This document shows positions 12,988-61,461 of a stretch of DNA of 61,461 nucleotides, in pieces. How positions within the stretch are numbered: the stretch's first letter is position 1; the number at the start of each line of letters is the position of its first letter. Source of the DNA: a virus; IMG/VR virus record IMGVR_UViG_3300025759_000099, positions 1-61,461 of that record; one strand, 5' to 3'. Under the pieces are notes generated by a model. That model was not told the DNA's origin and did not search any database. It saw nothing but the letters and a program-made list of their open reading frames with translations. The position numbers were made by a program, and so were the translations under genes.

Positions 12988-13012
12988 GCCCCCTTCATTG
13001 GGGGCTTTTTTT
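12988..13012 (+). terminator. Intrinsic terminator ending the plus arm
   Basis: GCCCCC (12988-12993), a 6-nt loop, GGGGGC (13000-13005), then seven T. This is a strong rho-independent terminator. Its T-run ends in the stop codon of the converging minus-strand gene, so the two arms are packed back to back. Read on the minus strand the stem has no U-tract. Confidence 0.9.
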
Positions 13013-16000
13013 ATGTAATATCTTCTAGACGTTGGCGCAGTACAGTGGGTATACGACGGCGGTTAATCGTAATACCACTAAACTGTCTTGCTATCTCATC
13101 CGTCAAACTATGTGAATTCATAGAACGTATAAAAGTTTCGGGAGTGATAGCTACTTCTGGATGCCTCTTATTGAAGCCTTGGAATTCTTTGACTAACTCT
13201 CGCATCTCATCGGTATCCCCAACTCGGCGTGCTAAGTGAAACTGACGCAATAGTTTACGTTTGCTTTCGCTTATTTCTCGGTCTATACGTTTATCTTTCG
13301 CATTCATCTCGATCATCTGCATATAACTAGCAGGGGCAAAACCTAGCGTTTGAGCCAATACGTTCCACGCGTTCAAATCCTCGACCACAGGGTCTCCGCG
13401 TAGTGTAGTAGCGCCCTCTATACCGAACCGTGCACCACGCATACCATTCGAGATAGCAGAAGGAAGCATTTTTTCCAAACCCCGAAGGATTTCTCCTTCT
13501 CCTATGAGACTAGCGCCGTCTTCCATCCTACTTACGATACCGAATACAGGCCCACCTACGGTCTCCATAGCTTGTAATATCATACTATCTTGCTCTCGGT
13601 TGGGTAGCGTACGATACACAAGGTTAGTCATACCGATACGTGGGGCTACATCTACCCCAAAAATACTATTAAGCGCACCTGAATAGAACCCCTCACCAAA
13701 GAAACTAGCCGCTATACTATCGAAGTTTTCATCTTCGTCGTCCAAGAATACTGTATCTGCTATCATTGAGATTATGCCGTACAGAGGTAACCCTTGCACC
13801 CCCGCAAATAGACCGGACATCGCAAACAATCCAGATATTTGTCTAACTGCTTCGGCACGTTCCCCTTTGTCTTTTACCCCTTTTAACACCTGTCGACCCA
13901 TCTTAGCTTGTAGATAGAGTATAGATATACCAAATCGTTTGTACATCATAAGCCAGCTACCCCAGTTACTCTGCGCTATTCTTGGGCCTGTTTCGGTCAT
14001 TGCGCCACTGTTAGTAAGTTCTGTGGTCTCAAGAGCTAACTCGGCGGCCATATCGCGGTCTTGTTCGGTAAGTTCGGATACAGGCACTTTTTTCTTTTTA
14101 GCCATAGCATCTAGTTCTAGCTTATAACTTGCTATTGCAGTAATCTGCCTGTTAGCGCGTTCCCCTTGGTGGAACATGTACCCCATAATTGCATTCGTCT
14201 TAGTCCACCAGCCATTCGAAGGGTTGTCATAATCAAGTGCATCGGCAATAGTAGAAGCGTTTGACTGCCCCCGTATTTCGAGAAGCTCCATTAACGGGCC
14301 TAGGTCTTCTGCACCCTTGGGTAAGCTATCGGGGTTGTTAAAATCTAAATTACTAAGGTTAGGGCCGTCAACCTCTGTACCGCCTTCTCGATCGAGAAAG
14401 TCTTTTCTGGTGCGCCGCATACCCGTACTCATGTATATTTTACGGGCGTCTTCCATAGCCTTCGCTGATTTTCTAAACCCAAATTTACCCCCCAAGTATG
14501 GTAGCACCACGATAGGTAAGTTGGTCGCATTAACCACTACAGAGGATACGTTGAGTCCAAGCGTCATCCCGAATCCAGCAGACTTAAGCGCCCTGCTCCA
14601 TGTAGCTAATTGCGGGTTACGTGCAAACGTAATGTATTCCTGTAAGAGTTGCGCTAAATCATTCGCATGGTTTTGTTTATCTGTACTTATATATTCATCA
14701 GCAGATTTTTTAATATCGGCACTAATTTGCGAGAAAGGTAAGTCATACTGTAGATTTACTTTTTGCTGTACAAAATTAGGCATACGCTCCCGAAATACTT
14801 TTAAAGCGTCTAGTTGAAAACCTAATACATTTTTACGTTTGCGGAAAGCGTTAAGGGCAGAACGTTCCGGCATAGCGTCAAGTAGCGCTTGCAATACTAT
14901 GTCTTGAGCATTTTGATCTACACCTGCGGCTTGCAAATCTTGAAATATACCGTAAGCCCACTGCGCGTCTACCGCACCAAAGTTGGTTATGCCCCCGTTC
15001 TTATTGCGTTCAAACGTACTTATGTTGGTGGCGTCCTCGGGCAACATAGCTCTAGCTTTACTACGCTGTGCTTCGGATTCAAACAATTCTTTATAAAATT
15101 CCTTGTTTCCGGTGCGTGGGTCTACTGATCGGTATGTGAGCCAGTGCGTGCCCTTACGGTATAACGGGAAATATGGTTCTATACTATCCTTAGTAAGTTG
15201 TTGTAGTAATTTGTCTTTAATAGTTCTACGAGCACCTTCTTCCATTTCTATATTGTTTAATCTTGTTTCTAAAGTTTCTATAAGGTCGTCGTAAACTTTA
15301 CGGTAGGAATCCCGCAAATCAGTATAGGCTTTTTTAAACGCTTGCTGTTCACTAGGAGACAGTTCGCGTATCTTTGCGTTCAAGACATCCCACTCATTTT
15401 GTTTAACTGGGTCAGCGGCGTAGTCACTGCGGGGTTTAGTAGGATCAACTTTTAGTAACGTACTTTCCGCCACTACAAAATTAAACACCTTACGTAATTG
15501 TTCGGACTTACCCTTAAACAAATCACTTATTTCTCTTGCCGTATCTTTTACTTTAGACATTTCGGCTGATCGAGCACCGTTCTTTTCTTGGATAAGTTTA
15601 AACAGGATGCCTGCATCCTTGCTTATTCCGGGGAAATCCAGTTTCGATACATTTACTATAGCGTTTAGGGGTAGAAAAGAATACGCGAAACGCCTGATAG
15701 CCCGCCCTGCCCCACGTAAAAACCCACTAACAGTAGCAATATCCGTTTCAGAAACCGTGCCTCTCGAAAACCGTCCTAACGAATTAAGTACAGTATCAGA
15801 CATTTCTGTAAGGGTAGCCGAATACAAATCGGCGGCATCGCGGTATTCAGGTGCAGGAGAAATTAAACTATCCAGTAGTTTATCCACGGCGTTTCTTGCC
15901 GACTCTACTTTTTTAGTAGGGACTCCACGGAACCGGGCAATAATGTTGGATATGATATTATTAAATTTTTGTAGTAGCCCTATCTTCTCGCCCTTTTCGT

Positions 16001-18800
16001 TAATCCTCGCTAATTTAGCTTGTAGTTCAGGATTACTAAATACTTCAGCGACGAACTCATCCAGACTAGTTGCACCATACGCTGTGTCGAGTCTACCTCG
16101 TACAGATTCAAACAAGTTACGCATTTGTATGGCGGCGGGTGTGTTTCTAGCTATTTCATGTGAGGTTACCGCATGTAAAGTTTCGTGTAGGAAAGTGTGA
16201 GTAGTAAGTTCTACATCTGGGTTAAGTACTATTTCGTTTGTACGGGGTCTAAATACACCCGCTATAGGCTCACCCTTCCTGTTTACTATCCCACCTTCAA
16301 ATCTGACACTAGTAGTGCCTATACCTTTAAGTACTGCACGCACCACACGGGCTACGTCTTTATCGGCTCCTACTAATAGGCGCTCCAAAGCCCTCTGCAA
16401 ACTACCGTTGTTTAACGCCGCAGATACTTCGGGACTTACTGGTACACCTACTTCAACCATTGCGTCTATAGGGAGAGGTAAACCCTGAAGTTCCCTATGT
16501 TTGGCTATTGCCCAACCTAAACGCCTATTGGACACAGGACTTAAGTTTTCTTGTACCCAACGGTATGCGGTTTCGTTTGCTTTCGTAAGACCTTCTGCGT
16601 TTATTTTTTTACCCAATTGCATAATTGCTTTAAAGGGGGACTTATCCTTAAAGAAATTAATGTACATAGGGTCGCGTTTCTTAAGCCGGTTTATTTTTTT
16701 AATGTCGCCCGCTATATTTGTAGATTTTACTGTTGTTGGGCGTGGAGGTATACGCGTACGGGGGCCACCTTTAGGCCCAATAAGTTCACCTTGTTCTGTA
16801 AGTAGTTCTTCGGCTTCTTGTTGGTCGGGTGTAGGTTGTTGCTGTGCCTGTTCTGTGGCTGCAATGCGTTCTTCCACACCCCTTAGTTCTTGTATGGTCG
16901 GGTCAGCCGTGGGTATAGCCGATATTCCTAGTTGTTGCTCTCCCGGTATTACCCGCCCGCGTTCATCTGTACGTTGCTGTACTTGTTGTGCTTGTTGCAT
17001 AGCTAAAGCTGTAGCTGTAGGTTGCGCGGCTAACTCTTGTTCACTACGCGCTAAAACTTCCTGCCCAGCTATTTGATCTTCCCTAGCGGCTTCAGCTTCT
17101 TCAAAAGCGGCTGTTCTAGCAGCTTCAGCGTCTATTTCCTGTTGCGCACGTTCTTGCTGTATCTGGTCAAAAGCGGCTGTACGGGCGGCTTCAGCTTCTT
17201 GTTCTTGCGTAGCTAAAACATCCGCGTCGATTTGCTGTTCTATATCAATCTGACCCGGCGATGTTTCTGTGGCTGGTACTCGTCCTTCCCCCGCTTCAAT
17301 TGCTTTTAGTAAAGGATTAGTATTTAGTAACCTAGCAACTGCCTCTCGGTTTGCTTTACTGGCATTTTTATTTTGTGTAAACGAAGTAAGGTCAGAAATA
17401 ACAGATTCCCGTACTTTTGGGTCGGATAAGTCTTTACCGATTGCTCTTGTTACAGCGGGGATTCTCAAACTAACGCCCGCATTTTGCATATCTTCTTTAC
17501 TTAGTATGGGAGTGCGAGTATCTGGGAACATCTCCCGTTGTCCAGCCGGTAGGCTTTCGATAGCGCCCTCAGCTTCAACAGCTTGCCTACGTTCAGCTAC
17601 AGCTTTCTCTCTTTCTTCTATAGCCCGCTGTCTAGCTTCAGCTTCTTGACCCGGCAGTATAAGTTCACCTTCAGGTGTTCCTACTATCCTTGGCTCCGCG
17701 ACTACAGGTAAGTCCCTAGGGCTAATCGGTTTTTGCCCCCTACGCGTATCAAATAAATCATATTGGGATAAATCAGATACAGGCCCAGTTTCTTCATCTA
17801 GTGGTGCGGGGGCGCGTGTGTCAACCGGGCCTTGGAATTCTCTTTCAGCTTCTACTTGCTCTGCTGGAAATAAATCCATTTGCCCAGCTTGTTCTTTTTC
17901 TATATCTTGTATGCGAGCTAAGTCTCTCTGAGCACTCGCATTAGCCCGAGGGCGTCCCGGTATAGCCAATTCTGCCAATGCCGCAAGTAGACCACCCACC
18001 CCTGCGCCATAACCCAGTGACTCTCCAGTTCCGGCAAAAGTACCGGTTTCAGGATCATATACACCTTGAGATATAAGATTTTGGGCTACTTCTGTACTTG
18101 CTTCTTGTAGTCCTTCACCACCTGCCGCTTGTGCTACCCTACGTAACCGCATTAAAGTAGTCTGAGCTACTTCTTCACCTAATACATCTTTTAATCCTTT
18201 GGCAACACGCATAGCCTTTACGGTTTTACCAATAGCAAACGGTACTAATGTCTCGCCCAGCCCCGGCAGTATACCTAGACCAGCGGCTTGACTTATTTGA
18301 TCTTCTGTAGCGCCAGCGGCTTCAGCACGTTTAGCGGCTTCGCCCGCACCAGCGGCACCACCTACAGCAACACCAGCGGCAAGTCCTGCCAAACCGAAGG
18401 GGGCAGTAGCTAAAAACGGTGCAGTTGAGCCAAGGGCTTCCGAACCTTTACGCGTTATTGTGTCTTCATACCCAGCACGCGGAGCTAAATCAGCTTGTAC
18501 ACCGGCACCAATTTCAGCTATTTTTTCACGCGCTTGTTGTTCTAGTTCTTCGGGGAGAAGAAAAGCCGCACCAGTAGCGGCAGATTCTAGGAGTCCGGCG
18601 GCACCAGAAGCTAAACCTCTAGGGATTTCAGCTAAGGCTCCACCAATAGTAGTTTCGGGGGGTTTGGTTGGGTCTTCTCCACGGGCTTGTTTTTTAAGCG
18701 CAGCGCTACCGTATATAGGTAGTTGGTCTTCCTTTACACCTACAGGTACATAAAAGTCAATATACCCTCCGTCTGTAAGGTTACCCCGTACGATAGGCAT
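13011..18800 (-). CDS. Giant polyvalent virion/ejection protein with HExxH protease-like domain
   Basis: A 1929-aa protein, the largest in the window. The N-terminus (about 50-280) has Gly/Ala-rich hydrophobic stretches. The middle (about 350-660) is Gln/Ala/Glu-rich coiled coil with repeated EAARTAAF units. A domain around residues 780-960 contains HETLH at 872-876, a zinc-metalloprotease motif, preceded by a beta-strand region. The C-terminal third has amphipathic and hydrophobic helices of the kind seen in large polyvalent-protein domains (LPD38-like). Such proteins are packaged and ejected with the DNA in podoviruses. The protease may act on other internal proteins, or on host targets after entry. 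It is the last gene of the minus arm. Confidence 0.75.
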   Translation of the reverse strand: MPIVRGNLTDGGYIDFYVPVGVKEDQLPIYGSAALKKQARGEDPTKPPETTIGGALAEIPRGLASGAAGLLESAATGAAFLLPEELEQQAREKIAEIGAGVQADLAPRAGYEDTITRKGSEALGSTAPFLATAPFGLAGLAAGVAVGGAAGAGEAAKRAEAAGATEDQISQAAGLGILPGLGETLVPFAIGKTVKAMRVAKGLKDVLGEEVAQTTLMRLRRVAQAAGGEGLQEASTEVAQNLISQGVYDPETGTFAGTGESLGYGAGVGGLLAALAELAIPGRPRANASAQRDLARIQDIEKEQAGQMDLFPAEQVEAEREFQGPVDTRAPAPLDEETGPVSDLSQYDLFDTRRGQKPISPRDLPVVAEPRIVGTPEGELILPGQEAEARQRAIEEREKAVAERRQAVEAEGAIESLPAGQREMFPDTRTPILSKEDMQNAGVSLRIPAVTRAIGKDLSDPKVRESVISDLTSFTQNKNASKANREAVARLLNTNPLLKAIEAGEGRVPATETSPGQIDIEQQIDADVLATQEQEAEAARTAAFDQIQQERAQQEIDAEAARTAAFEEAEAAREDQIAGQEVLARSEQELAAQPTATALAMQQAQQVQQRTDERGRVIPGEQQLGISAIPTADPTIQELRGVEERIAATEQAQQQPTPDQQEAEELLTEQGELIGPKGGPRTRIPPRPTTVKSTNIAGDIKKINRLKKRDPMYINFFKDKSPFKAIMQLGKKINAEGLTKANETAYRWVQENLSPVSNRRLGWAIAKHRELQGLPLPIDAMVEVGVPVSPEVSAALNNGSLQRALERLLVGADKDVARVVRAVLKGIGTTSVRFEGGIVNRKGEPIAGVFRPRTNEIVLNPDVELTTHTFLHETLHAVTSHEIARNTPAAIQMRNLFESVRGRLDTAYGATSLDEFVAEVFSNPELQAKLARINEKGEKIGLLQKFNNIISNIIARFRGVPTKKVESARNAVDKLLDSLISPAPEYRDAADLYSATLTEMSDTVLNSLGRFSRGTVSETDIATVSGFLRGAGRAIRRFAYSFLPLNAIVNVSKLDFPGISKDAGILFKLIQEKNGARSAEMSKVKDTAREISDLFKGKSEQLRKVFNFVVAESTLLKVDPTKPRSDYAADPVKQNEWDVLNAKIRELSPSEQQAFKKAYTDLRDSYRKVYDDLIETLETRLNNIEMEEGARRTIKDKLLQQLTKDSIEPYFPLYRKGTHWLTYRSVDPRTGNKEFYKELFESEAQRSKARAMLPEDATNISTFERNKNGGITNFGAVDAQWAYGIFQDLQAAGVDQNAQDIVLQALLDAMPERSALNAFRKRKNVLGFQLDALKVFRERMPNFVQQKVNLQYDLPFSQISADIKKSADEYISTDKQNHANDLAQLLQEYITFARNPQLATWSRALKSAGFGMTLGLNVSSVVVNATNLPIVVLPYLGGKFGFRKSAKAMEDARKIYMSTGMRRTRKDFLDREGGTEVDGPNLSNLDFNNPDSLPKGAEDLGPLMELLEIRGQSNASTIADALDYDNPSNGWWTKTNAIMGYMFHQGERANRQITAIASYKLELDAMAKKKKVPVSELTEQDRDMAAELALETTELTNSGAMTETGPRIAQSNWGSWLMMYKRFGISILYLQAKMGRQVLKGVKDKGERAEAVRQISGLFAMSGLFAGVQGLPLYGIISMIADTVFLDDEDENFDSIAASFFGEGFYSGALNSIFGVDVAPRIGMTNLVYRTLPNREQDSMILQAMETVGGPVFGIVSRMEDGASLIGEGEILRGLEKMLPSAISNGMRGARFGIEGATTLRGDPVVEDLNAWNVLAQTLGFAPASYMQMIEMNAKDKRIDREISESKRKLLRQFHLARRVGDTDEMRELVKEFQGFNKRHPEVAITPETFIRSMNSHSLTDEIARQFSGITINRRRIPTVLRQRLEDIT

Positions 18801-49552: not shown

Positions 49553-51307
49553 TCAGTAGTACCCGCCCTTGCGCTGTTTAAAATATAGTTTGTCTTCTGG
49601 CTCGTCAGTTGGTAATGTAATAAAGCCGCCCTGTCTAAACCGTATTAGGGCCATTACAGTCGAGTCAACTAAGTCATCATGGCTCATAAATGGAAATCCT
49701 GCAATCTCTTCCACGACTTCCTCTGCCCAACGCGTTTGTGGTACCCAACATAACCCGGACATTACTATATCAGCAACGGAATTTAAACGTGCTGTTTTAT
49801 CACCTGTACCCCTGTGTGGGGTAAACTCTTGTACTAATAATCCCATTCGGCGAAGTTCTTGATATAGCGGCGTACCACTACTCTTTTTCTCCACTATAAA
49901 CGCGTCGGGTTGCCACTCGTCATACTGCTCAAAGGCAAGTTGTTTTAACTCTGGGAACTCCACGCGCTCCTTGATGCTGTTTAATAGTATTATATTATAA
50001 GTGTCCGGTATACCTATAGTATCTCCGTCCTCGTCCTTAAACTGCCCCTCATACCTAAATACGCCCCATACTGTCAGGGCGGTAAAGTCAGCACGGTTGT
50101 GTTTTTCTGCCGCAGCGTCAAGCGACATTATCACATACTCACACGTCGGTGGTTTCTCTATGGGCCACTCGTTCCACCACTCGCGCTTAACGAGCGCTGC
50201 TTCTTCGGCTGTAGGTACCTGTTGATACTGCGCATTCCACTGAAACAGCGGCATAGACGCTTTAGTGCGTACAAGAGCATCAAGATTAAAAAACTCAGGC
50301 CATAGCGGTTTCTCTACGATCTGGTTAGTTTTCTTGTCTTCTACCTCTAATATCGCCGGAAACTCTACTACCTCGTACTGGTCAGCCTGCTCGTTCTGCG
50401 ACATATCCCGCGTTACGCGACCTGTCAAATCATCAAGATGCCATCGGGTCTGGATAATAGCCACACGACCACCCGGCATGAGACGAGTACGAGCACCATA
50501 TGTGAACCATTCATACGCTTTATCAAAAACATCAAAATTCCCACTCAACACATCTTGTTCTGAATGCGGGTCATCAACCAAGAGCAGGTGAGCACCACGA
50601 CCAGCGATGGAGCTACCTATACCACAGGCGTAATACTCTCCACCCATGTTAGTGTTCCAACGCCCCGCAGATTTACTGTCTGAGGCTAACTGCACGTTTG
50701 GGAATATAGACTGATACTCGGCGGTAGATATAAGGTTTCGCACCTTCCTACCGAAGTCCACCGCTAGGTCGGTGGTATGTGACACCATCATTACTTTTTT
50801 ATCGGGGTTACGCCCCAAAAACCAAGCGGGGAAGTATATAGAAACTAACTGTGATTTACCATGACGCGGTGGGATGTTTACACATATCCTGTCTTTTCCA
50901 GTTTCTTCTAGTTCTGCGCCGTTCTCGTCGTATTCTTTGCCAATCTCGATCTCCATCAGGAGGTCTGCGAGTATCCTGTGGTGCTTACCCACCTTATAAT
51001 CCGCCTGCATGAACTTACAAAACTCTATTAAGTCAAGATAAGCCGCTTCCGCCCGCTTTTTACCCTCTAACTCCTCGACTATTTTGTATATCTCTGCTTG
51101 TTCTTCGAGAGAGTACGAATCGAGGCTGTTTAACAGCAGGTCTAGCTCTTCCTGCGTGAACTCAGGGACAGGTGGAGGGGTGTTTAAGTCTGTAGAGGGC
51201 TTAGGTGTGGGGGTCATTACGAGAGACTTAGCTATAATCCGCTTCTTACGGGCTTCCTGAGCCTCTTTCTGGGCTTTTCCCGACATTTTTGATATTTGCG
51301 CTGTCAT
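49553..51307 (-). CDS. terL: Terminase large subunit
   Basis: A 584-aa motor protein. ATPase domain: Walker A PPRHGKS (146-152) and Walker B LLLVDDPH (Asp245, Asp246). Nuclease domain: SLDAAA (Asp397) with Asp407, and a C-terminal HDDLVD motif. It packages DNA through the portal and cuts concatemers. It starts with a four-base overlap on the small subunit. Confidence 0.93.
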   Translation of the reverse strand: MTAQISKMSGKAQKEAQEARKKRIIAKSLVMTPTPKPSTDLNTPPPVPEFTQEELDLLLNSLDSYSLEEQAEIYKIVEELEGKKRAEAAYLDLIEFCKFMQADYKVGKHHRILADLLMEIEIGKEYDENGAELEETGKDRICVNIPPRHGKSQLVSIYFPAWFLGRNPDKKVMMVSHTTDLAVDFGRKVRNLISTAEYQSIFPNVQLASDSKSAGRWNTNMGGEYYACGIGSSIAGRGAHLLLVDDPHSEQDVLSGNFDVFDKAYEWFTYGARTRLMPGGRVAIIQTRWHLDDLTGRVTRDMSQNEQADQYEVVEFPAILEVEDKKTNQIVEKPLWPEFFNLDALVRTKASMPLFQWNAQYQQVPTAEEAALVKREWWNEWPIEKPPTCEYVIMSLDAAAEKHNRADFTALTVWGVFRYEGQFKDEDGDTIGIPDTYNIILLNSIKERVEFPELKQLAFEQYDEWQPDAFIVEKKSSGTPLYQELRRMGLLVQEFTPHRGTGDKTARLNSVADIVMSGLCWVPQTRWAEEVVEEIAGFPFMSHDDLVDSTVMALIRFRQGGFITLPTDEPEDKLYFKQRKGGYY

Positions 51308-51849
51308 TCTTTGTTTATTTCGTACACGCCTTCGCTGTTTTGTTTAAGCACTTCCAGTTTTTCGCGCAATTTTTCACGTAGTTCGTCTGCGTTCTGGTGT
51401 GTAACTGTGATTTCTTTGCGTTCTGTGAACAATCCTACGTCTGTCATCTTACCTAGTAGCTCTAAAGCGCGGATTCTGACCCGTGCGTCAGGGTTCTCTG
51501 TCTCCAGTATCAGCTTATTAACCACTGTGTTACGTATTTCAGCGGCGTGGGTGGCTACTATTTGACCGAATTCTTTGAGGATGGCGTTGGTTTGGATGAG
51601 AGAGGCAGGACGCAGGGTGGCGGTGCGGTTGTGGGATAGTGCTTTGGAAGTCTCTTCAACGTCTTTTGCATACGCAGTCAGGAAGGTAGCGGCAATATCG
51701 TTGTCCTCATCGGTCGGTTCAATATCCAAACCGTGTTCGCTAAGCATAAGAGCAGTGTTACACGCCGCTTCAGCGCGTTCTTTAAGGTCTATATACTTTA
51801 CGTCGTCGGGGATTTCTATCCCGAACTCTGGGGTGAGGGCTACTGCCAT
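51304..51849 (-). CDS. Terminase small subunit (putative)
   Basis: A 181-aa helical protein directly before the large subunit, joined by ATGA. The VRIRALELLGKMTDVGLF segment is the kind of helix found in small subunits that recognise packaging sites. AAGGAAA lies before the ATG. It is the first gene of the minus arm, about 140 bp after the promoter at 51994-52022. Confidence 0.75.
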   Translation of the reverse strand: MAVALTPEFGIEIPDDVKYIDLKERAEAACNTALMLSEHGLDIEPTDEDNDIAATFLTAYAKDVEETSKALSHNRTATLRPASLIQTNAILKEFGQIVATHAAEIRNTVVNKLILETENPDARVRIRALELLGKMTDVGLFTERKEITVTHQNADELREKLREKLEVLKQNSEGVYEINKE

Positions 51850-52169: not shown

Positions 52170-52197
52170 TTGACAATTAAACTCAATTTGCTATTAT
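52170..52197 (+). promoter_or_regulatory. Strong sigma70-type promoter for the plus (early) arm
   Basis: Perfect TTGACA (52170-52175), 16-bp spacer ending in TGC (extended -10), TATTAT (52192-52197). A paired GTTATAAC site starts 29 bp downstream of the -10, in the 5' leader of the gene at 52282. Confidence 0.8.
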
Positions 52198-52226: not shown

Positions 52227-52244
52227 GTTATAACACGTTATAAC
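52227..52244. promoter_or_regulatory. Paired GTTATAAC site 1
   Basis: GTTATAACACGTTATAAC: two 8-bp palindromes with starts 10 bp apart (one helical turn). Located between the promoter at 52170 and the first plus-arm gene, an operator-like place. Confidence 0.7.
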
Positions 52245-52281
52245 AGGTAACTTTAAACTTAACTTAATAGGAAATTAAATC

Positions 52282-52908
52282 ATGAAACTATCTATATCTA
52301 CTTTTGATCTAACTGTAAAAAGCGCAGCCGCTGATGCTACTGCTGACAATCGACGCTCTGCTATGATCGACGCCTACATCGCCGATGGCATCACCAGTAA
52401 GATGTTACTGGCCGATACAAAAAAAGCGCCGAATGATGGTTATGATGCGGAATTGACTGAAAGCATTAATCTGGCTTTTGTTACCGGCTGGGGTAAGAAT
52501 GAGCTGGTACTGTATAAAGCGGATCATGCCAGCCTGACCCCTGTTATGAGGGAAAGACGTAATGAGCTGACCAGACGTTTGGGTTCATATCGCGGGGCAT
52601 TACGGCGCGATCTGGATAACAGGGCGGCAAAGGCAAAGGAAGAAAAGGAAGAAAAGGAATTTTTGGAAAAGATAAATGGATACAAAACAGAGGCCGCGAA
52701 AAAGAGAGCGATTAATCTGCGCGAAACCCAAAAAACTGAGGCAAAAAAGGCACGTACTACTAAACCAGCCCAATCTGCCGAGGCCGAGGTTATCGAATAC
52801 CTGACAGCAACTTACAATGTTCTGAAGAAAAAGGATTTCGCTATCATCTTCAATCGCGAAGATGTGCTAGAACAAGTAAATGAGTTGCTGGCAATATTCG
52901 AAGCATAA
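52282..52908 (+). CDS. First early protein, unknown, 208 aa
   Basis: A 208-aa protein. The N-terminal 110 residues look globular. Residues about 110-165 are a highly charged helical stretch (AKAKEEKEEKEFLEK..KKRAINLRE). The C-terminal 40 residues are a compact domain with a LKKKDFAIIFNREDVLEQV segment. No family recognised. As the first gene after the strongest promoter, it may be a host-takeover or regulatory factor. Its codon use (more G/C-ending codons) looks different from the replication genes further along the arm. A terminator follows directly. Confidence 0.7.
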   Translation: MKLSISTFDLTVKSAAADATADNRRSAMIDAYIADGITSKMLLADTKKAPNDGYDAELTESINLAFVTGWGKNELVLYKADHASLTPVMRERRNELTRRLGSYRGALRRDLDNRAAKAKEEKEEKEFLEKINGYKTEAAKKRAINLRETQKTEAKKARTTKPAQSAEAEVIEYLTATYNVLKKKDFAIIFNREDVLEQVNELLAIFEA

Positions 52909-52949
52909 TCCATTAACCTTAAACCCCGTTCGAAAGAGCGGGGTTTTTT
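52903..52949 (+). repeat. 47-bp stop-codon/terminator repeat, copy 1
   Basis: Runs from GCATAA (gene end) through CCATTAACCTT to the terminator T-run. It matches 53145-53191 at 46 of 47 positions. Confidence 0.95.
52921..52949 (+). terminator. Intrinsic terminator 1
   Basis: AAACCCCG (52921-52928), 10-nt loop, CGGGGTTT (52939-52946) and six T in total. It ends the transcript of the first early gene. Confidence 0.9.
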
Positions 52950-52967
52950 AATACAGGAAAAAACAAT

Positions 52968-53150
52968 ATGTCATTTAATACTGAAAGCCCCGTATGTAAT
53001 GGAAACGTATGTCCCAAAAAGAAAGAGTGCAATCGTTACATAGGATTCGAAATCGCGCAGGGATTGAACGTTGAACGTTATTGGACTCTTAACCCTACGT
53101 TACAGGAACGGTGTCAGGTAATACCTTGTAAGCATTTCGTTCCCGCATAA
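52968..53150 (+). CDS. Cys-rich small protein, 60 aa
   Basis: A 60-aa protein with five Cys: CNGNVCPKKKEC near the N-terminus and two near the C-terminus (C..PCKH), probably a metal-binding knuckle. AGGAAA lies before the ATG. It is enclosed by two near-identical terminators, so it is a single-gene unit. No family recognised. Confidence 0.6.
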   Translation: MSFNTESPVCNGNVCPKKKECNRYIGFEIAQGLNVERYWTLNPTLQERCQVIPCKHFVPA

Positions 53151-53191
53151 TCCATTAACCTTAAACCCCGTTCGAGAGAGCGGGGTTTTTT
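53145..53191 (+). repeat. 47-bp stop-codon/terminator repeat, copy 2
   Basis: Second copy of 52903-52949, again beginning at the last codons of a gene (GCATAA). One substitution, A to G in the loop. Confidence 0.95.
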
Positions 53192-53193
53192 TT
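53163..53193 (+). terminator. Intrinsic terminator 2
   Basis: AAACCCCG (53163-53170), 10-nt loop, CGGGGTTT (53181-53188) and eight T in total. Ends the Cys-rich gene. Confidence 0.9.
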
Positions 53194-53264
53194 CGCCTGT
53201 AATAAATACAATCCCTCCCTGTACCTGCATCAAATCCGGCTTTGCCCTGCTCTGTTCCCTCCCT

Positions 53265-53282
53265 GTTATAACACGTTATAAC
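53265..53282. promoter_or_regulatory. Paired GTTATAAC site 2
   Basis: GTTATAACACGTTATAAC, identical to sites 1 and 6. Confidence 0.7.
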
Positions 53283-53326
53283 AAGTCACTTGATCTCCCT
53301 CTGTTCACTAAGGTTCAACTTCGTTC

Positions 53327-53355
53327 GATACCAGTACCCTAGGGGCGCATCGCCT
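53327..53355 (+). repeat. GATACCAGTACC repeat, copy 1
   Basis: 29 bp from GATACCAGTACC to GGGGCGCATCGCCT. Contains the small stem GGCG-CAT-CGCC. Unlike copies 2 and 3 it is not directly preceded by a GTTATAAC pair. Confidence 0.9.
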
Positions 53356-53396
53356 TAGTGGTTTTTATGATGGGTACGGGATGTAGGATTGACGCT

Positions 53397-53449
53397 GTTA
53401 TAACATGTTATAACGACCCTGATACCAGTACCTTAGGGGCGCATCGCCT
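53397..53449 (+). repeat. 53-bp composite repeat, copy 2 (GTTATAAC pair + GATACCAGTACC)
   Basis: Begins with a perfect 18-bp palindrome GTTATAACATGTTATAAC (53397-53414), then CGACCCT-type linker and the GATACCAGTACC...GGGGCGCATCGCCT core (53421-53449). Matches 53515-53567 at 51 of 53 positions. Confidence 0.95.
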
Positions 53450-53514
53450 ACGCTGTTGCATAGTATTCAAGTCCGAGCATAACTAGGCAGGACGTGTTTG
53501 GCTAAATCCTCTTT

Positions 53515-53567
53515 GTTATAACATGTTATAACGACCCTGATACCAGTACCAGAGGGGCGCATCGCCT
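53515..53567 (+). repeat. 53-bp composite repeat, copy 3
   Basis: GTTATAACATGTTATAAC (53515-53532) followed by the GATACCAGTACC core (53539-53567). Differs from copy 2 only in two bases (TT to AG) in the middle of the core. Spacing between copies 2 and 3 is 118 bp. Confidence 0.95.
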
Positions 53568-53597
53568 GTGGCACATAACAAAGCTGAACAATACTCA

Positions 53598-53639
53598 ATC
53601 AAACCCAAATGTTCCGCATGTTCCTTGATGTTCCGTTTT
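53598..53639 (+). repeat. Inverted repeat with three ATGTTCC iterons, left arm
   Basis: 42 bp holding ATGTTCC three times (9-10 bp apart). It is the reverse complement of 53936-53977 at all but about five positions. Its first 17 bp can also pair with 53652-53668, with one mismatch. Confidence 0.9.
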
Positions 53640-53714
53640 GTTTTTTTAGCACGGAACATTTGAGTTTGGTTAGGTTTGGTTGTGTTTGATATAGGTTTGG
53701 TGGGGTTTGGTTGT

Positions 53715-53760
53715 GTTATAAAACTTAATAATAATAAATAATAATATAATATAATGTAAT
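53715..53760. other. AT-rich block, possible DNA unwinding element
   Basis: A run of AATAATAATAAATAATAAT-type sequence, almost free of G and C, between the two arms of the iteron inverted repeat. Confidence 0.6.
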
Positions 53761-53878
53761 GTACCAAATGTTCTGTTTTTTTCTTACTTTTTTCAAATCT
53801 GTAAAAACTTCTACTTTTTTTGGTTTAGCTAAACCTCCGCCTCCCCCCTCCTCTTTTACAGAAACCTCCAAAAATAAC

Positions 53879-53903
53879 GGAACATTTGGAACATGTGGAA
53901 CAT
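53879..53903 (+). repeat. Three tandem GGAACAT iterons
   Basis: GGAACATTT-GGAACATGT-GGAACAT with a 9-bp period, in the same orientation as the right arm of the inverted repeat. Confidence 0.9.
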
Positions 53904-53935
53904 CCCTTTAGAATCAACAACTTAGCCAAAAACCC

Positions 53936-53977
53936 AAAATGGAACATGAAGGAACATGCGGAACATTTGAGTTTAAT
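53936..53977 (+). repeat. Inverted repeat with three GGAACAT iterons, right arm
   Basis: GGAACAT three times (53941, 53951, 53960 region). Pairs with 53598-53639, giving a 42-bp inverted repeat around a 296-bp centre. Confidence 0.9.
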
Positions 53978-54090
53978 ATAGTTTATTTTATTTTTATGTT
54001 TTTTTGTTTATTTTAGTTGACCTAAGCTCTCGGTTTTGAGACTATGTAAGCTCACTTAGAGAAACAAGTTTTACCAACCCCAACCAACCC

Positions 54091-54118
54091 GTTATAACAC
54101 GTTATAACACGTTATAAC
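54091..54118. promoter_or_regulatory. Triple GTTATAAC site 5
   Basis: Three GTTATAAC palindromes at 54091, 54101 and 54111, exactly 10 bp apart, ending 18 bp before the ATG of the gene at 54136 and directly before its ribosome-binding site. Confidence 0.75.
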
Positions 54119-54135
54119 AAACAGAGGAGCAAAAC

Positions 54136-54357
54136 ATGAATGGCGAAACAACAAAGCTACGGCATGAGCTAATCCACATACAGGACGCACATGCACAAGC
54201 AATATACGAGTTGAAAGAAAGAATGAGCGAGGCACTTGAGTGTGTACGGCTTGCAAAGATAGCACTTAATCGTGACCCAGATACACACAGCAAGCACGAC
54301 ATAATCCAGTATCAATTAGAGTACGCAATCGAAGAACTGAAAGGAGGACAACCATGA
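54136..54357 (+). CDS. Small helical early protein, 73 aa
   Basis: A 73-aa charged helical protein (RHELIHIQDAHAQAIYELK..), possibly coiled coil. AGAGGAG lies 6 bp or so before the ATG in a leader shared with 54914. The GTTATAAC triple site lies just upstream. ATGA overlap with the next gene. No family recognised. Confidence 0.65.
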   Translation: MNGETTKLRHELIHIQDAHAQAIYELKERMSEALECVRLAKIALNRDPDTHSKHDIIQYQLEYAIEELKGGQP

Positions 54358-54653
54358 GAAAGATAGAAAAACAAATGATTCAAGCAATACGCGAAAAACG
54401 CGATTGGAAATCTAGCAACACCAAAGTGGTACAAGTACGTAGTAACGGCATTAACTACGCCTACATTTACCTGCACGATAACCACATTGCTACTGCTACA
54501 CCTGACACATGGGACAGAGCACCATTCGCCAACCCAAACAGAGATACATTCAGGTACTGGCCTACTGCTACAACGCGTAGCCGGTTACGTGCGCTGGGCG
54601 TAAACGCAAGTATTAAAAACCACTGTGCCGTACTGGACGGCATGACATTGTGA
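54354..54653 (+). CDS. Early protein, 99 aa, unknown
   Basis: A 99-aa basic protein with a beta-rich centre (KVVQVRSNGINYAYIYLHDN) and a C-terminal helix with TTRSRLRALGV. Small proteins with this type of layout occur in early regions of phages, but I cannot assign a family. Overlaps the previous gene by ATGA. Confidence 0.65.
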   Translation: MRKIEKQMIQAIREKRDWKSSNTKVVQVRSNGINYAYIYLHDNHIATATPDTWDRAPFANPNRDTFRYWPTATTRSRLRALGVNASIKNHCAVLDGMTL

Positions 54654-54667
54654 ATAACTTACAACCC

Positions 54668-54685
54668 GTTATAACACGTTATAAC
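54668..54685. promoter_or_regulatory. Paired GTTATAAC site 6
   Basis: GTTATAACACGTTATAAC, 16 bp before the ATG of the gene at 54702, directly in front of its GAGAGGAG ribosome-binding site. Confidence 0.75.
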
Positions 54686-56578: not shown

Positions 56579-57526
56579 ATGAACAACGCAATGCAAACAA
56601 ATGTTACGGAAACACATAACAAACCAACACCAACTGCGCCTACTGCGCCTGACATAAAACCACTGGGAGACTACGGTGTGATGCTGGAGGTACACGTATC
56701 ACTACCGGAGTTTAAGAAACAAGACAAGCGGGCAAGTAAGCAGGTGGCGCAGGATAACAACGCCAACGCCAAACAGGTGGGTGTAATCAAGACACTGCTG
56801 GACATGCCGGAACTCAAAACACTGAAAGGACTTAAAAGCGAGATATACGCGGTGCGCGGTGACTTTGGTACGCCGATGGGGGTGAATCAATACTTTATAC
56901 CCAACACTCGCATCATCGACTGTAAGAACGTGTTAGAGCAACTACTTAACGAATTTAACGGGACAGGCAAGCAATCCTTTATCAACGCGTATCCCGCTGG
57001 GGTGACCAGAGCGCAACTCAATGCTGAAGGGCTTGGCTACATGTTCGACGAATCACTGTACCCATCGGTAGATAGTCTGTACTCAAAAATCAATGCGAGT
57101 GCGTCGTGGAATCAACTACCGTCAACTGGGGTTATGTCTGAGATACACAAACAGGCGCAGGAGACCTTGAGAGAGGAGTTTGCACATAACGCGAACAAAG
57201 CCCAAGAGACCCTGATGAACGGGGTATGGGAGCGACTACGTACCCCCCTACTCAATATGTCTAAGCGGCTGGACTACGGGGACGATGGGAAACCAAAAGA
57301 CGGTGGCTTTAAAGGTACGCTGGTGAACAACGTGCTAGAGATTGTCGACCTGATGAAGCACTGCAATGTCGGAAACGACCCGCGTATGGAACAGGTACGC
57401 ATTGACCTGCGTAATGCACTGACTGGGGTAACCTACGACAGTCTCAAGAACAGCGACGGGATGCGACGCAAAACGAAAGCCGAGGTGGATAAGATCATAG
57501 ACAACTTGCCGTCACTGGGATGGTAA
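56579..57526 (+). CDS. Unknown protein of the AAA+/VWA module, 315 aa (DUF3150-like?)
   Basis: A 315-aa soluble protein. A Thr/Pro-rich N-terminus is followed by a mixed helical core with LPEFKKQDKRASKQVA and a PSTGVMSEIHKQAQETLREE helical stretch. In other phages a protein of comparable size, often named DUF3150, accompanies MoxR-type ATPase and VWA genes; the match here rests on context and general layout. GGAG lies before the ATG. A 22-bp palindrome follows the stop. Confidence 0.5.
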   Translation: MNNAMQTNVTETHNKPTPTAPTAPDIKPLGDYGVMLEVHVSLPEFKKQDKRASKQVAQDNNANAKQVGVIKTLLDMPELKTLKGLKSEIYAVRGDFGTPMGVNQYFIPNTRIIDCKNVLEQLLNEFNGTGKQSFINAYPAGVTRAQLNAEGLGYMFDESLYPSVDSLYSKINASASWNQLPSTGVMSEIHKQAQETLREEFAHNANKAQETLMNGVWERLRTPLLNMSKRLDYGDDGKPKDGGFKGTLVNNVLEIVDLMKHCNVGNDPRMEQVRIDLRNALTGVTYDSLKNSDGMRRKTKAEVDKIIDNLPSLGW

Positions 57527-57535
57527 CAGAGCAAA

Positions 57536-57557
57536 TACCAAAAGCCGGCTTTTGGTA
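57536..57557. promoter_or_regulatory. 22-bp perfect palindrome
   Basis: A perfect palindrome centred on GCCGGC with arms TACCAAAAGCC and GGCTTTTGGTA, 9 bp after the stop of the preceding gene and 33 bp before the -35 at 57591. Without a clear U-tract it is more like an operator than a terminator. Confidence 0.75.
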
Positions 57558-57590
57558 ACGATTTCATGGAGCACAGGGACGTGCGTTACA

Positions 57591-57620
57591 TTGACTTAAA
57601 CAAACAAACTGCACTATAAT
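57591..57620 (+). promoter_or_regulatory. Strong sigma70-type promoter for the AAA+/VWA genes
   Basis: TTGACT (57591-57596), 18-bp spacer, perfect TATAAT (57615-57620). The ATG of the ATPase gene follows 53 bp later. Contains AAACTGCACTATA (57606-57618), identical to the promoter at 8080. Confidence 0.85.
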
Positions 57621-57672
57621 ATGTATAACTTAATGAAACATCATATAACTAAATGTCTTAGGAGGACACGTT

Positions 57673-58758
57673 ATGACAACTGCAACATCAATGTATGCAC
57701 TTAACCACAATCAGATAGCACAACTAATCGCAACCGTAGGTAGGGACAACTGCGTGCTGGTGCAAGGTGAGACGGGTACAGGTAAAACGAGTATCCAGAA
57801 AATACTAGAGGTTAAATTCCCCAACCATATCTTGGTTTACTTTGATGGTACGACCAAGGATATGGGTGACCTGATGGTGCCGATGTTCCATACGATTGGT
57901 GACGATGGCGTGGTGCGCTACGCGACCAACGAGGAACTGGGACTGCACTTAGATAAACCCGTTATAGTAATGATAGACGAGTTTGGTAAATGTCTGCCAA
58001 CTGTTAAGAACGCATTGACCAGACTTATACTGGAACGTCAGATGGGTGCAAAAAAACTGCATGAGGAATCCTTGCTTTGGGCTACTACTAACTTACAAGC
58101 CGAGGGACTGGGTGACATGCTACCGGCACACGTACGTAATCGCATAACAACTGTGGAGATGCGTAAACCTGATGCTACCGAGTGGATAGAATGGGGTATC
58201 AATAACGACATTGACCCGATGATTTTAGCGTGGACTAAGGATACTCCCCAACTGTTCCACAGTTTCAAGGATTGTAAGCCGGAAGAAAATCCATACATTA
58301 ACCATCCACAGGCACAGCGTGCGTCGTTTGTATCCCCTCGTTCACTTGAGAAGGCGAGTAATATTCTCAAACAACGTGACCAGATAGACACGACTACACT
58401 GACCGCATCATTAATAGGTACGATAGGTGAACGTGGTGCACTAGACCTGATGGCATACGTAGCACTGGGTGACCAACTACCATCACTTGACTCTATCAAG
58501 AACGACCCGATGGGTGCCAAGGTTCCAACTGCCGCTGGTGCGGTGTGTATGGTGGTATATCGTTCACTTGCGACTATCGAGCGTAGCTGGATTAAACAGT
58601 GGATGACTTACCTAAACAGGTTGAACAAGGAAGCACAGGGCTTGTTTGTCAACGGTGCGCGTGCCAAGGGCTATAGCAAGCAGGATGTAGTAACACAGTC
58701 TAAGGAGTTTCAGGACTGGTGCTTGGCTAATAACTTTTTGTTTAGCGCAGATAAATAA
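57673..58758 (+). CDS. MoxR/CbbQ-type AAA+ ATPase
   Basis: A 361-aa ATPase. Walker A GETGTGKT (32-39), Walker B VIVMIDEFGK (Asp102, Glu103), sensor-1 LLWATTNL and a later arginine-rich VRNR segment. The layout fits the MoxR/CobS/CbbQ group, which remodel partner proteins together with VWA-domain proteins. The VWA gene follows directly. GGAGGA lies 9 bp or so before the ATG. Confidence 0.88.
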   Translation: MTTATSMYALNHNQIAQLIATVGRDNCVLVQGETGTGKTSIQKILEVKFPNHILVYFDGTTKDMGDLMVPMFHTIGDDGVVRYATNEELGLHLDKPVIVMIDEFGKCLPTVKNALTRLILERQMGAKKLHEESLLWATTNLQAEGLGDMLPAHVRNRITTVEMRKPDATEWIEWGINNDIDPMILAWTKDTPQLFHSFKDCKPEENPYINHPQAQRASFVSPRSLEKASNILKQRDQIDTTTLTASLIGTIGERGALDLMAYVALGDQLPSLDSIKNDPMGAKVPTAAGAVCMVVYRSLATIERSWIKQWMTYLNRLNKEAQGLFVNGARAKGYSKQDVVTQSKEFQDWCLANNFLFSADK

Positions 58759-58779
58759 CAACTAACAGGAGTAGGAAAC

Positions 58780-59988
58780 ATGTTAGCAATAAATTTAGAC
58801 CTAACAGCCGAACAACGGCTACATAAATCTGTTGTGAGTATTATGTCCAACCCCCGCTACGTAGCGATGGCGGGACTGCTTATGATGGGTAAACGAACTA
58901 TCGACGAGACAACACCAACCGCGTGTACCAATGGACGCGATGAGGTGTACGGACGGGCGTTTGTAGATTCACTTACTGATGCCGAACTACGATTTGTGGT
59001 ACTGCATGAGTGTAAACATAAGATGTATCGCCATTTGATAACATGGAAACACTTGCATGACAAAGACCACAGGTGTGCAAATATGGCGTGTGACTACGTG
59101 ATTAACCTAGAGATTGAGGCTGAGAATCCAGATGGGTTTGCCACTATGCCACTAGATGAGAACGGTAAACGTATTGGGCTATTAGACCATAGGTTCCGAA
59201 ACATGAACTCGCAAGAGGTATTCAACATCATCTATGAGGAGCAGGAACAAGGAGGTGGTGCAGGTGAGGGTGAGGGTGAGGGTGAGACCCTAGACTCGCA
59301 TGACTGGGATGGAGCGCAGGAGATGTCTGACGGTGAGAAACGTCAACTGGAACAAGAGATAGACCAAGCAATACGCCAAGGTGCGTTGACCGCTGGCAAG
59401 ATGGGCGCGGATACACCACGGGGGTTTGAGCAACTACTACAACCACAGATAGATTGGCGTGAGGTGATGCGTGAGTTTGTTAGCACAACGTGTACAGGTA
59501 AGGACTATAGCACTTACAACCGACCCAACCGACGATTCATGTCTGCGGGAATGTACATGCCGAGTGCAGTGAGTGAACAGGTAGGTGAACTTGTAGTAGC
59601 TATCGATACAAGCGGTAGCATAGGCGATACCGAACTGGCTGTGTTCCTTAGCGAACTGAAATCTATCTGCGATACGGTGAACCCAAGCGGTGTACGACTA
59701 CTGTACTGGGGACATGAGGTAGTAGGTGATGAGAAGTATGGGGATATGGATACCCCGATAGACCAACTCGTTACGTCAACTAAACCCCAAGGTGGAGGTG
59801 GTACGGATGTGAACTGTGTATGCAACTACATACGCGAGGAGAACATCAATGCCGAAGCTGTTGTGGTGTTGACTGATGGGTATCTTGCAGGTGACTGGGG
59901 TACATGGACGCAACCCCTGTTGTGGTGCATATTGAATAATGCGAGCGCCAACCCTAGTGTTGGTAAATACGTTAACGTAACTTTATAG
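58780..59988 (+). CDS. Metallopeptidase-like/VWA-domain protein
   Basis: A 402-aa protein. The N-terminal domain contains HECKH (76-80), an HExxH zinc motif of the kind found in DUF2201_N proteins. The middle is acidic (GEGEGEGE run around 168-175). The C-terminal VWA domain has a complete MIDAS: DTSGS (276-280), Thr342 in GGGGTD, and Asp366 in LTDG. MoxR-type ATPases act on or with such partners. AACAGGAG lies before the ATG. Confidence 0.85.
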   Translation: MLAINLDLTAEQRLHKSVVSIMSNPRYVAMAGLLMMGKRTIDETTPTACTNGRDEVYGRAFVDSLTDAELRFVVLHECKHKMYRHLITWKHLHDKDHRCANMACDYVINLEIEAENPDGFATMPLDENGKRIGLLDHRFRNMNSQEVFNIIYEEQEQGGGAGEGEGEGETLDSHDWDGAQEMSDGEKRQLEQEIDQAIRQGALTAGKMGADTPRGFEQLLQPQIDWREVMREFVSTTCTGKDYSTYNRPNRRFMSAGMYMPSAVSEQVGELVVAIDTSGSIGDTELAVFLSELKSICDTVNPSGVRLLYWGHEVVGDEKYGDMDTPIDQLVTSTKPQGGGGTDVNCVCNYIREENINAEAVVVLTDGYLAGDWGTWTQPLLWCILNNASANPSVGKYVNVTL

Positions 59989-59995
59989 GAGAATA

Positions 59996-60970
59996 ATGAT
60001 GAGCATAAATAGCTATTTAATAAAAGAAGTAAGAGAGGTAGACCATACATACTCAACTGACTTTACGGCAGTGATAACTGGTATCAAAAAACGCCTGAAA
60101 CATCGAGTTTCGTTTGATGTATTAAAGGTAAATCACGATAACTGTGTGACCAAGGTAGGTGTACGTGTACCTAACTCTCTGTACTATACTTGTTTCATAG
60201 GAGAGCTAGGTACAGACATGAACTTTGAAACGGTATTCGGGATTAAGTCGTTCCGAATTCATAAGGATAGGTACAACTACGACTGGGGTGTTGAGTGGTC
60301 AAAGGCATCTATCACCAGAAAAATACCGCGTGCGGTATCAATAGCAAGTAACTTAGAACCCTTATACGACAACGGGGTAGTACACCAAGCTGTGGTCGAT
60401 ATGCGGAACACCGCAGAGGAAGCGTTGACTAAATCTGAAAACGAATACTCAAGATTAGATGTTACGCTTGTTGAGGCACTAACATCATACAAATTGAGGA
60501 CTGAAACGACGGCGCTTGTAAAGCAATTTATCGAATCATCCAAAGCGGGGCAAGTAGCAAGCGTAGACTCTAACAACCCTGTGCTACAGATGTATGATGA
60601 ATACTGCACGAAGAAGGAAGAACTACAAGAAGAACTAACGCACCTAGGTGAACGTGTTATTGTACATGTAATAAAACTTTTCAATCGTGAAGATATATTC
60701 ATGCGACTGGAGGGGAGGCAAGCACTACACATGCAAATGCAGGGGATGCAAGCACGACTACCTTCTGTGTCTACCCTACCCCAAAGCGTGCAGACTTTAG
60801 TACACACCGTAAACCTTATGGCTATAGGGAACGGATACAGCACTACGAAAACGTGTAGTGTAGGAGTGATGGACAATGCGGAACATAGAATAGTGGAAGA
60901 CCACTACGTAGTATTCTTACCGGTGGAAGAAGCAGAGGGCTTGAGGGAGATACTACATGTCCCTGAATAG
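59996..60970 (+). CDS. Unknown protein, 324 aa, downstream of VWA gene
   Basis: A 324-aa protein with a beta-rich N-terminal region (to about 120) and helical C-terminal two-thirds including a coiled-coil-like stretch (KKEELQEELTHLGERVIVHV). No recognised domain. TAGGAG lies before an ATG-ATG pair (59996/59999). It lies close to the AAA+/VWA genes and is probably co-transcribed. Confidence 0.6.
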   Translation: MMSINSYLIKEVREVDHTYSTDFTAVITGIKKRLKHRVSFDVLKVNHDNCVTKVGVRVPNSLYYTCFIGELGTDMNFETVFGIKSFRIHKDRYNYDWGVEWSKASITRKIPRAVSIASNLEPLYDNGVVHQAVVDMRNTAEEALTKSENEYSRLDVTLVEALTSYKLRTETTALVKQFIESSKAGQVASVDSNNPVLQMYDEYCTKKEELQEELTHLGERVIVHVIKLFNREDIFMRLEGRQALHMQMQGMQARLPSVSTLPQSVQTLVHTVNLMAIGNGYSTTKTCSVGVMDNAEHRIVEDHYVVFLPVEEAEGLREILHVPE

Positions 60971-61214
60971 AGTGTACCGTGTGGAGTTTACAGGTAGACA
61001 AGCTAAGGTAGATAAGTTTGATACATTAGATACTACGCCGGAACTGGATGGTGAATACCACATCGACGACCTACCTGACTGGATGCAGAAACGCATAGCG
61101 GTATTATCGTTTATGTCATACGAGCCGCCTACTGAGTACATAGAGAATGTAGGTAGGCGGATAGAGAAAAATGTTTATTGGGTTCTTTACCCAGAGGAGA
61201 ATGATGGAAATTAA
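60957..61214 (+). CDS. Unknown protein, 85 aa
   Basis: An 85-aa acidic protein without recognised domain. The ATG overlaps the previous gene's end by 14 bp. The stop lies inside the start of the pentapeptide-repeat gene (overlap 11 bp). Confidence 0.6.
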   Translation: MSLNRVYRVEFTGRQAKVDKFDTLDTTPELDGEYHIDDLPDWMQKRIAVLSFMSYEPPTEYIENVGRRIEKNVYWVLYPEENDGN

Positions 61215-61461
61215 CGGGTACGAGTATCAGATAATACCTAAGGCTGACTTGCGGAAGGCTGACTTGCGGAGGGCTGACTTGCAGGAGGCTGACTTGCGGA
61301 GGGCTGACTTGCAGGAGGCTGACTTGCGGAAGGCTGACTTGCGGAAGGCTGACTTGTGGGGGGCTTACTTGCGGAAGGCTAACTTGTATGGGGCTGACTT
61401 GCAGGAGGCTAACTTGCAGGGGGCTAACTTGCGGGGGGCTGACTTGCGGGGGGCTGACTTG
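61204..61461 (+). CDS. Pentapeptide-repeat protein, N-terminal part (continues at window start)
   Basis: ATG at 61204 (61201 also possible) with GAGGAG at 61194-61199. After 13 non-repeat residues the A(D/N/Y)Lxx repeats begin at 61243. Fourteen complete units and the first three residues of another are seen before the window ends in frame. Units here carry R/K/E at positions 4-5 more often than in the 1-135 part, where G dominates. The open frame continues into base 1 of the window. Confidence 0.88.
   Translation, partial: MEINGYEYQIIPKADLRKADLRRADLQEADLRRADLQEADLRKADLRKADLWGAYLRKANLYGADLQEANLQGANLRGADLRGADL
61243..61461 (+). repeat. 15-bp tandem repeat array encoding pentapeptides (left part)
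   Basis: 14.6 units of GCT-NAC-TTG-NNG-NNG. Many adjacent units are identical, such as GCTGACTTGCGGAAG and GCTGACTTGCAGGAG in alternation, indicating recent unit duplication. Confidence 0.95.

Follow-up and report, generated by a model that had tools for sequence, protein, structure and literature searches.

An inverted iteron array with an AT-rich core as probable replication origin of uncultured phages encoding a primase-DUF927 helicase

Background

Where does replication begin in the genome of an uncultured phage, and which protein would open the DNA there? Few phages have known replication origins, and the question is raised by a repeat-dense non-coding region of virus record IMGVR_UViG_3300025759_000099 (61,461 bp; the whole record is called the window here). 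The original prediction, made from the sequence, had read this region as a replication origin and had named the encoded primase-polymerase/helicase or a helix-turn-helix (HTH) protein at 8549 as possible initiators. Our analysis supports the origin: positions 53598-53977 are likely to be a theta-type replication origin of the phage, opened by the primase-DUF927-helicase protein encoded at 9822-12674. A conserved iteron array with an AT core, its link to the replication module and the homology of the putative initiator carry this reading.

Results

A two-armed iteron array surrounds the AT-richest segment of the window

The region begins after a terminator and extends to the gene at 54136; it contains no convincing gene, in line with its earlier description as non-coding. 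The features of the array are as follows.

53163-53188, plus strand: intrinsic terminator-like stem-loop, left boundary of the non-coding region
53598-53977: candidate origin core, marked by arm complementarity and conservation; its two iteron arms face outward and enclose an AT-rich block
53609-53659, minus strand: left iteron arm, GGAACAT at 53609, 53618 and 53628 (minus) and 53653 (plus)
53710-53769: AT-rich block, candidate melting region, AT-only at 53725-53755
53879-53966, plus strand: right iteron arm, GGAACAT at 53879, 53888, 53897, 53941, 53951 and 53960

GGAACAT occurs 10 times within 358 bp (53609-53966), where the Poisson expectation is 0.04 (P about 3e-21). In the right arm all six copies point outward (plus), and successive starts are 9-10 bp apart except for a single 44-bp step. 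In the left arm three copies point outward (minus) and the fourth is reversed. The arms lie in an inverted repeat, as had been claimed, with 46 of 53 positions complementary between 53598-53650 and 53925-53977. The left arm also folds with its own 53653 site (z -2.9 vs shuffles), a pairing that we read as a by-product of the inverted iterons. No 60-mer of the window is richer in AT than the one at 53710, between the arms, which has 8 G/C compared to 11 for the next one elsewhere. The predicted AT-only block does lie there and is the longest AT-only run of the window (the next has 19 bp), but it measures 31 bp instead of 40. Repeated candidate initiator sites thus adjoin an AT-rich element, the arrangement of iteron-controlled origins.

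The array is conserved at one syntenic site

Relatives were fetched by terminase and by the AAA protein, without use of the motif, and a locus was counted if the terminase side and the DUF3150/AAA side were both present. The genes that mark the site in the window are listed below; next to the candidate origin, the DUF3150, MoxR-like AAA and VWA/DUF2201 genes are conserved as a group of three throughout the family.

49553-51307, minus strand: terminase large subunit (TerL), left neighbour of the origin region
51304-51849, minus strand: probable terminase small subunit (TerS), left neighbour of the origin region
56579-59988, plus strand: DUF3150, MoxR-like AAA and DUF2201/VWA genes, right neighbours, marking the syntenic site in relatives

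Arrays in which an iteron core occurs five or more times were found in 60 of 66 such loci (55 when the eight commonest cores were used) and in none of 330 shuffled-interval controls; among syntenic intervals the count was 85/97. In relatives the array has the terminase genes on one side and the DUF3150/AAA/VWA genes on the other. A protein-independent scan for a GGAACAT-triplet pattern returned two classes, repeats inside open reading frames (ORFs) and two-strand non-coding arrays. Many matches in viral contigs were excluded as same-strand repeats within ORFs, and in almost all contigs with readable neighbours the two-strand arrays occupied this one syntenic site. In an unsupervised scan, the array was the top inverted 7-mer cluster in most family genomes. 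Repeats of contig G082 that were first taken as iterons were rejected as palindromes on a truncated contig.

The layout was analyzed in 64 non-redundant arrays, some of which came from motif-based scans, whereas the 66-locus count contains none of these. The arrays span 331 +/- 46 bp, and most of their sites point outward: in the left half 275 are on the minus strand and 35 on the plus strand, in the right half 194 on the plus strand and 47 on the minus strand. In 47/64 cases the array contains the lowest-GC 40-mer of its interval, with 12% expected by length, at a median relative position of 0.48. Same-strand iteron spacings peak at 8-11, 21, 32 and 42 bp and follow helical turns; no p-value is given for this phasing because related arrays share spacings by descent.

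The candidate initiator resembles SaPI Rep and Cch

The protein named above has the following architecture.

9822-12674, plus strand: candidate initiator of 950 aa, archaeo-eukaryotic primase (AEP), DUF927/MCM-like AAA+ helicase and C-terminal putative winged helix

It matches Pfam DUF927 (2.5e-25) and, in profile comparisons, Rep of the Staphylococcus aureus pathogenicity island (SaPI) SaPIbov1 (8tch, 5.8e-22) and Cch of the staphylococcal cassette chromosome SCCmec (5dgk, 8.2e-15). An AlphaFold2 (AF2) model with a pLDDT of 82.5 retrieved SaPIbov1 Rep, Cch and S-2L PrimPol with Foldseek, and AEP primases at the N-terminus. For the isolated C-terminus SaPIbov1 Rep and Cch were again on top, but with E > 0.001, and therefore the winged-helix call rests on the predicted helix-helix-strand-strand order. 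Cch, a DUF927 protein, is related to SaPIbov1 Rep; SaPI Rep reads iteron origins via its C-terminal domain, and it is this domain that binds iterons in Rep helicases of the SaPI/Cch kind (PMC7581432). The primase-DUF927 protein is encoded in nearly all long (>40 kb) family records searched that have the array, the exception being the divergent G030 (57 kb). The family-wide array and AT core, the tie to the replication module and this homology support the original proposal of an origin recognised by the phage's own primase-polymerase/helicase.

Iteron sequences change in concert and covary with the primase C-terminus

The iteron core is GAACATT in most lineages. Variant cores are GAACTTT (G004, G013), TAACATT (G012, G018, G019), TAACAAT (G020), GGAACAAT (G047), CGACATT (G008) and TTGCAAC (G015), and GTAACATT is the heptamer of another lineage. 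Each variant is repeated through most of the array in its genome. Since the copies change together within a genome, they point to one trans-acting reader.

Iteron distance was compared with protein distance over 26 genomes by Mantel correlation. From the N- to the C-terminus of the primase-helicase, rho was -0.03, 0.08, 0.26, 0.32, 0.39 and 0.33; the value for residues 746-940 (0.39, p 0.006) is, like the others, that of a modest covariation with p values uncorrected for multiple testing. TerS gave rho 0.30 (p 0.03), and none of the other 15 proteins reached p < 0.05. These data support a role of the primase C-terminus in iteron reading, without proving it.

The same comparison bears on another possibility, in which the array is an origin but the primase-helicase is only recruited to it. 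The initiator would then be a host factor or a different phage protein, for example the MoxR-like AAA protein or the HTH/excisionase-like protein at 8549. The DUF3150, AAA and VWA genes are indeed the nearest conserved right-hand neighbours of the array. However, none of these proteins covaries with the iterons (rho -0.13 to -0.01, with -0.03 for the HTH protein that the original prediction had offered as a candidate), phage MinM2 has AAA and DUF2201 homologues without an array, and DUF927 relatives are described in the literature as self-loading initiators. We therefore regard a different initiator as unlikely.

The array accompanies the replication module and not the virion module

Phages DSL-LC04, HTVC023P and MinM2 have TerL (42-47% vs the window TerL), portal and major capsid protein in common with the window, and they contain neither the DUF927 primase nor the array. 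Conversely, Pseudomonas phage Rollin (OR577172) shares the DUF927 primase (27.6% vs the window protein), SNF2, PolA, two small proteins and the DarB-like protein, and carries no window terminase, portal or capsid gene. Its non-coding left end has TTGCATA in three minus copies at 260-304, three plus copies at 528-546 (9-bp steps) and two more at 617 and 673; the AT-richest 60-mer of Rollin lies in this region at 519, and the phage's own palindromes flank it. Likewise, the Escherichia coli plasmid pSTEC648_2 has phage-like genes, a 26% DUF927 homologue and TGTAGCA sites in opposed sets at 9261-9490; immediately to the left of these sites, at 9189, lies the AT-richest 60-mer of the plasmid. In the genomes compared, the array thus travels with the primase-DUF927 replication module and not with the virion module.

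That the array occurs where only the replication module is shared, and is absent where only virion genes are shared, favours an origin over a packaging initiation (pac) site to which the adjoining TerS would bind. A pac site would suit genomes that appear circularly permuted and headful-like: records begin at different points of one circular order, the array is syntenic with TerS/TerL in relatives with readable neighbours, and TerS divergence correlates with iteron divergence. This correlation may reflect linkage, as TerS is within about 2 kb of the array and the primase 17-20 kb away. A headful pac site should follow the packaging genes; the array is missing from the three phages that share TerL, portal and capsid genes and present, on the same plan, in Rollin, which has no detectable TerL/TerS homologue. 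A weak point of this argument is that the TerS proteins of DSL-LC04 and HTVC023P are not detectably homologous to that of the window. The central AT block and the helical phasing suit an origin. Overall, a pac site seems quite improbable.

Two further plasmids with DUF927 genes were inspected. The 11-kb Pseudomonas satellite-like element pHS87b (L596, 7517-7677) carries, directly 3' of its DUF927 gene, six GGGAAC repeats that are all on one strand, follow each other in paired steps of 8-12 bp and resemble GGAACAT; they are suggestive but one-sided. A Cereibacter plasmid was not used; it has a separate RepB, and its only repeats were palindromic GC ones.

Palindromes and left-flank repeats form a separate element

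The earlier description had joined palindromes, direct repeats, iterons and AT block into one origin-like architecture. The iterons and the AT block do belong together; the remaining motifs, listed here, are better treated as a separate element.

53265-53532: three GTTATAACNNGTTATAAC palindrome pairs left of the core, starting at 53265, 53397 and 53515, probably operator-type sites
53302-53567, plus strand: 54-nt direct repeat in three copies (53302, 53396, 53514), holding GATACCAGTACC and GGGGCGCATCGCCT
54091-54118: triple GTTATAAC directly upstream of gene 54136
52227 and 54668: GTTATAAC motif upstream of genes 52282 and 54702, respectively

Both kinds of repeat are real. GTTATAAC has 13 copies in the window compared to 1.6 by chance, a number reached by no shuffle, and all copies are within 52227-54685, arranged without exception as GTTATAACNNGTTATAAC pairs or as a triplet. 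The region has three copies of GATACCAGTACC (53327, 53421, 53539), each within the 54-nt repeat, and two more exact copies are in coding DNA (3947, 10433). Hairpins in the GATACCAGTACC repeats were rejected, being no better than in shuffles.

Sites at 52227-52244, 54091-54118 and 54668-54685 are 16-37 bp upstream of early-gene start codons and recur in relatives. Across twelve records, 36/44 GTTATAAC sites have an ORF of at least 40 aa starting within 120 bp on one strand, and a strong sigma-70-like promoter (52170-52197) precedes one pair. The arrangement of two 8-bp palindromes at a distance of one helical turn hints at a repressor or activator that binds cooperatively. It may be asked whether array and palindromes together are a transcription control region (operators or enhancer) of the plus-arm early genes. 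The sites just upstream of start codons (52227, 54091, 54101, 54668) and the promoter fit this explanation, which suits the palindromes but not the iterons: the GGAACAT array is the one cluster per genome that is symmetrical and AT-cored, and it is kept where the palindromes of a lineage are different or none were found. For the array, we consider transcription control very unlikely. The GTTATAAC palindromes are probably operators of early genes, separate from the origin core, and we read them as sites of a co-evolving regulator; neither they nor the GATACCAGTACC repeats are probably the initiator's sites.

Palindromes of other lineages are GTTCTAACATGTTAGAAC (L056), paired GTTAGTG/CACTAAC sites and, in Rollin, AAAAGGTAG/CTACCTTTT. 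Lineage-specific direct repeats also recur beside palindromes and left of iterons: GATACCAGTACC..GGGGCGCATCGCCT at 53302-53567 in the window and CAGTTCCC-containing units at 2570-2670 in L098 and 1640-1715 in L140. In addition, window positions 52900-53190 belong to a duplicated unit, in which the genes at 52282 and 52968 are each trailed by near-identical terminators and flanks.

Genome layout

The record was treated as a circle because both of its ends lie within the same kind of repeat array and relatives show an identical circular gene order with other start points per record.

1-320 and 60957-61461: terminal 15-bp pentapeptide-type repeat array

As both ends sit in one such array, assembly probably broke the circle there. 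The virion genes are on the minus strand and read from 51.8 kb towards 13.0 kb. The plus-strand arm starts at 52.3 kb, crosses the record end and reaches 12.9 kb; among its genes are those for PolA, a PD-(D/E)XK nuclease, an SNF2-type helicase and the 950-aa protein. The region had been placed at the head of this plus arm; it is near the head, but small genes at 52282 and 52968 come before it. At the convergent end of the virion arm, 13011-18800 encodes a DarB-like antirestriction protein of 1,929 aa with homologues in Rollin and TM29. Rfam and tRNA scans gave no match, and neither did a DNA similarity search against known phages.

Observations weighing against the proposed origin

Several results weigh against the origin or its proposed initiator. 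The correlation of TerS with iteron distance is one of them, as are the modest, uncorrected covariation values. When the 8-mer core alone was used, rho of the primase C-terminus dropped to 0.22 (p 0.08). On the circle, 17-20 kb separate the initiator gene from the array, in relatives as well, whereas SaPI origins adjoin the 3' end of rep. In Rhizobium phage TM29 and contig G085 the primase is present and no clear iteron array was found. Finally, the cumulative GC skew, proposed earlier as a check, has its minimum at 51.1 kb, near the region as expected for an origin, but its maximum at 12.9 kb is not antipodal. Both extremes follow gene-orientation switches, in the window and in most relatives, and GC skew was therefore dropped as independent proof.

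Discussion

If the array is the origin, the following sequence of events can be proposed, in which binding, melting and bidirectional firing are inferred. Copies of the primase-DUF927-helicase protein would bind the GGAACATT iterons via the C-terminal domain. The outward-facing arms would set helicase rings on both sides of the AT block, which would melt. The rings would then load and unwind, the fused primase would start synthesis, and the phage PolA would extend.

The closest parallels are the origins of phage-inducible chromosomal islands (PICIs), including SaPIbov1 and E. coli PICIs, where an MCM-like, DUF927-related helicase acts as initiator and is partnered by an AEP primase (PMC7581432). 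Like these, the element studied here itself encodes a homologue of the SaPI Rep/Cch family. Unlike these, and unlike helper-dependent satellites, it is a complete phage with terminase, portal, major capsid and DNA polymerase genes all on the record; the iteron sequences differ, the arms face outward and the primase is fused in one 950-aa protein. The SaPI origin lies just 3' of rep, while here the initiator gene is far from the array. SCCmec is similar in that Cch is homologous to the window protein and the C-terminal domain of Cch2 binds AAGTG iterons, but its putative origin has three iterons directly downstream of cch2 and its primase is a separate protein pair. The Rollin left end shares the homologous primase, inverted heptamers in 9-bp steps, an AT block and flanking palindromes; it differs in iteron, palindrome and virion genes, and is not annotated as an origin.

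In the alpha protein of satellite phage P4, primase, helicase and initiator are likewise combined in one protein that acts on iterons. Alpha belongs to another helicase family, and the P4 site differs in sequence and layout. Finding the satellite (PICI) origin plan in complete phages, and with the initiator gene at a distance of 17-20 kb, appears to be new.

A broader idea, which we put forward tentatively and hold at somewhat below even chances, is that a self-loading primase-DUF927 initiator and a two-armed iteron origin form a modular replicon common to unrelated phages, phage-plasmids and satellites, in which initiator and iteron switch specificity together. If so, complete phages would be a source of the satellite origin, which was reported from no other bacterial replicon, or a target for origin mimicry. 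The lineage-specific heptamers would provide a natural data set on the joint change of specificity in initiator and site. One layout can be made out in dozens of uncultured aquatic phages, and it predicts an origin with a named initiator in the isolate Rollin and in an E. coli plasmid.
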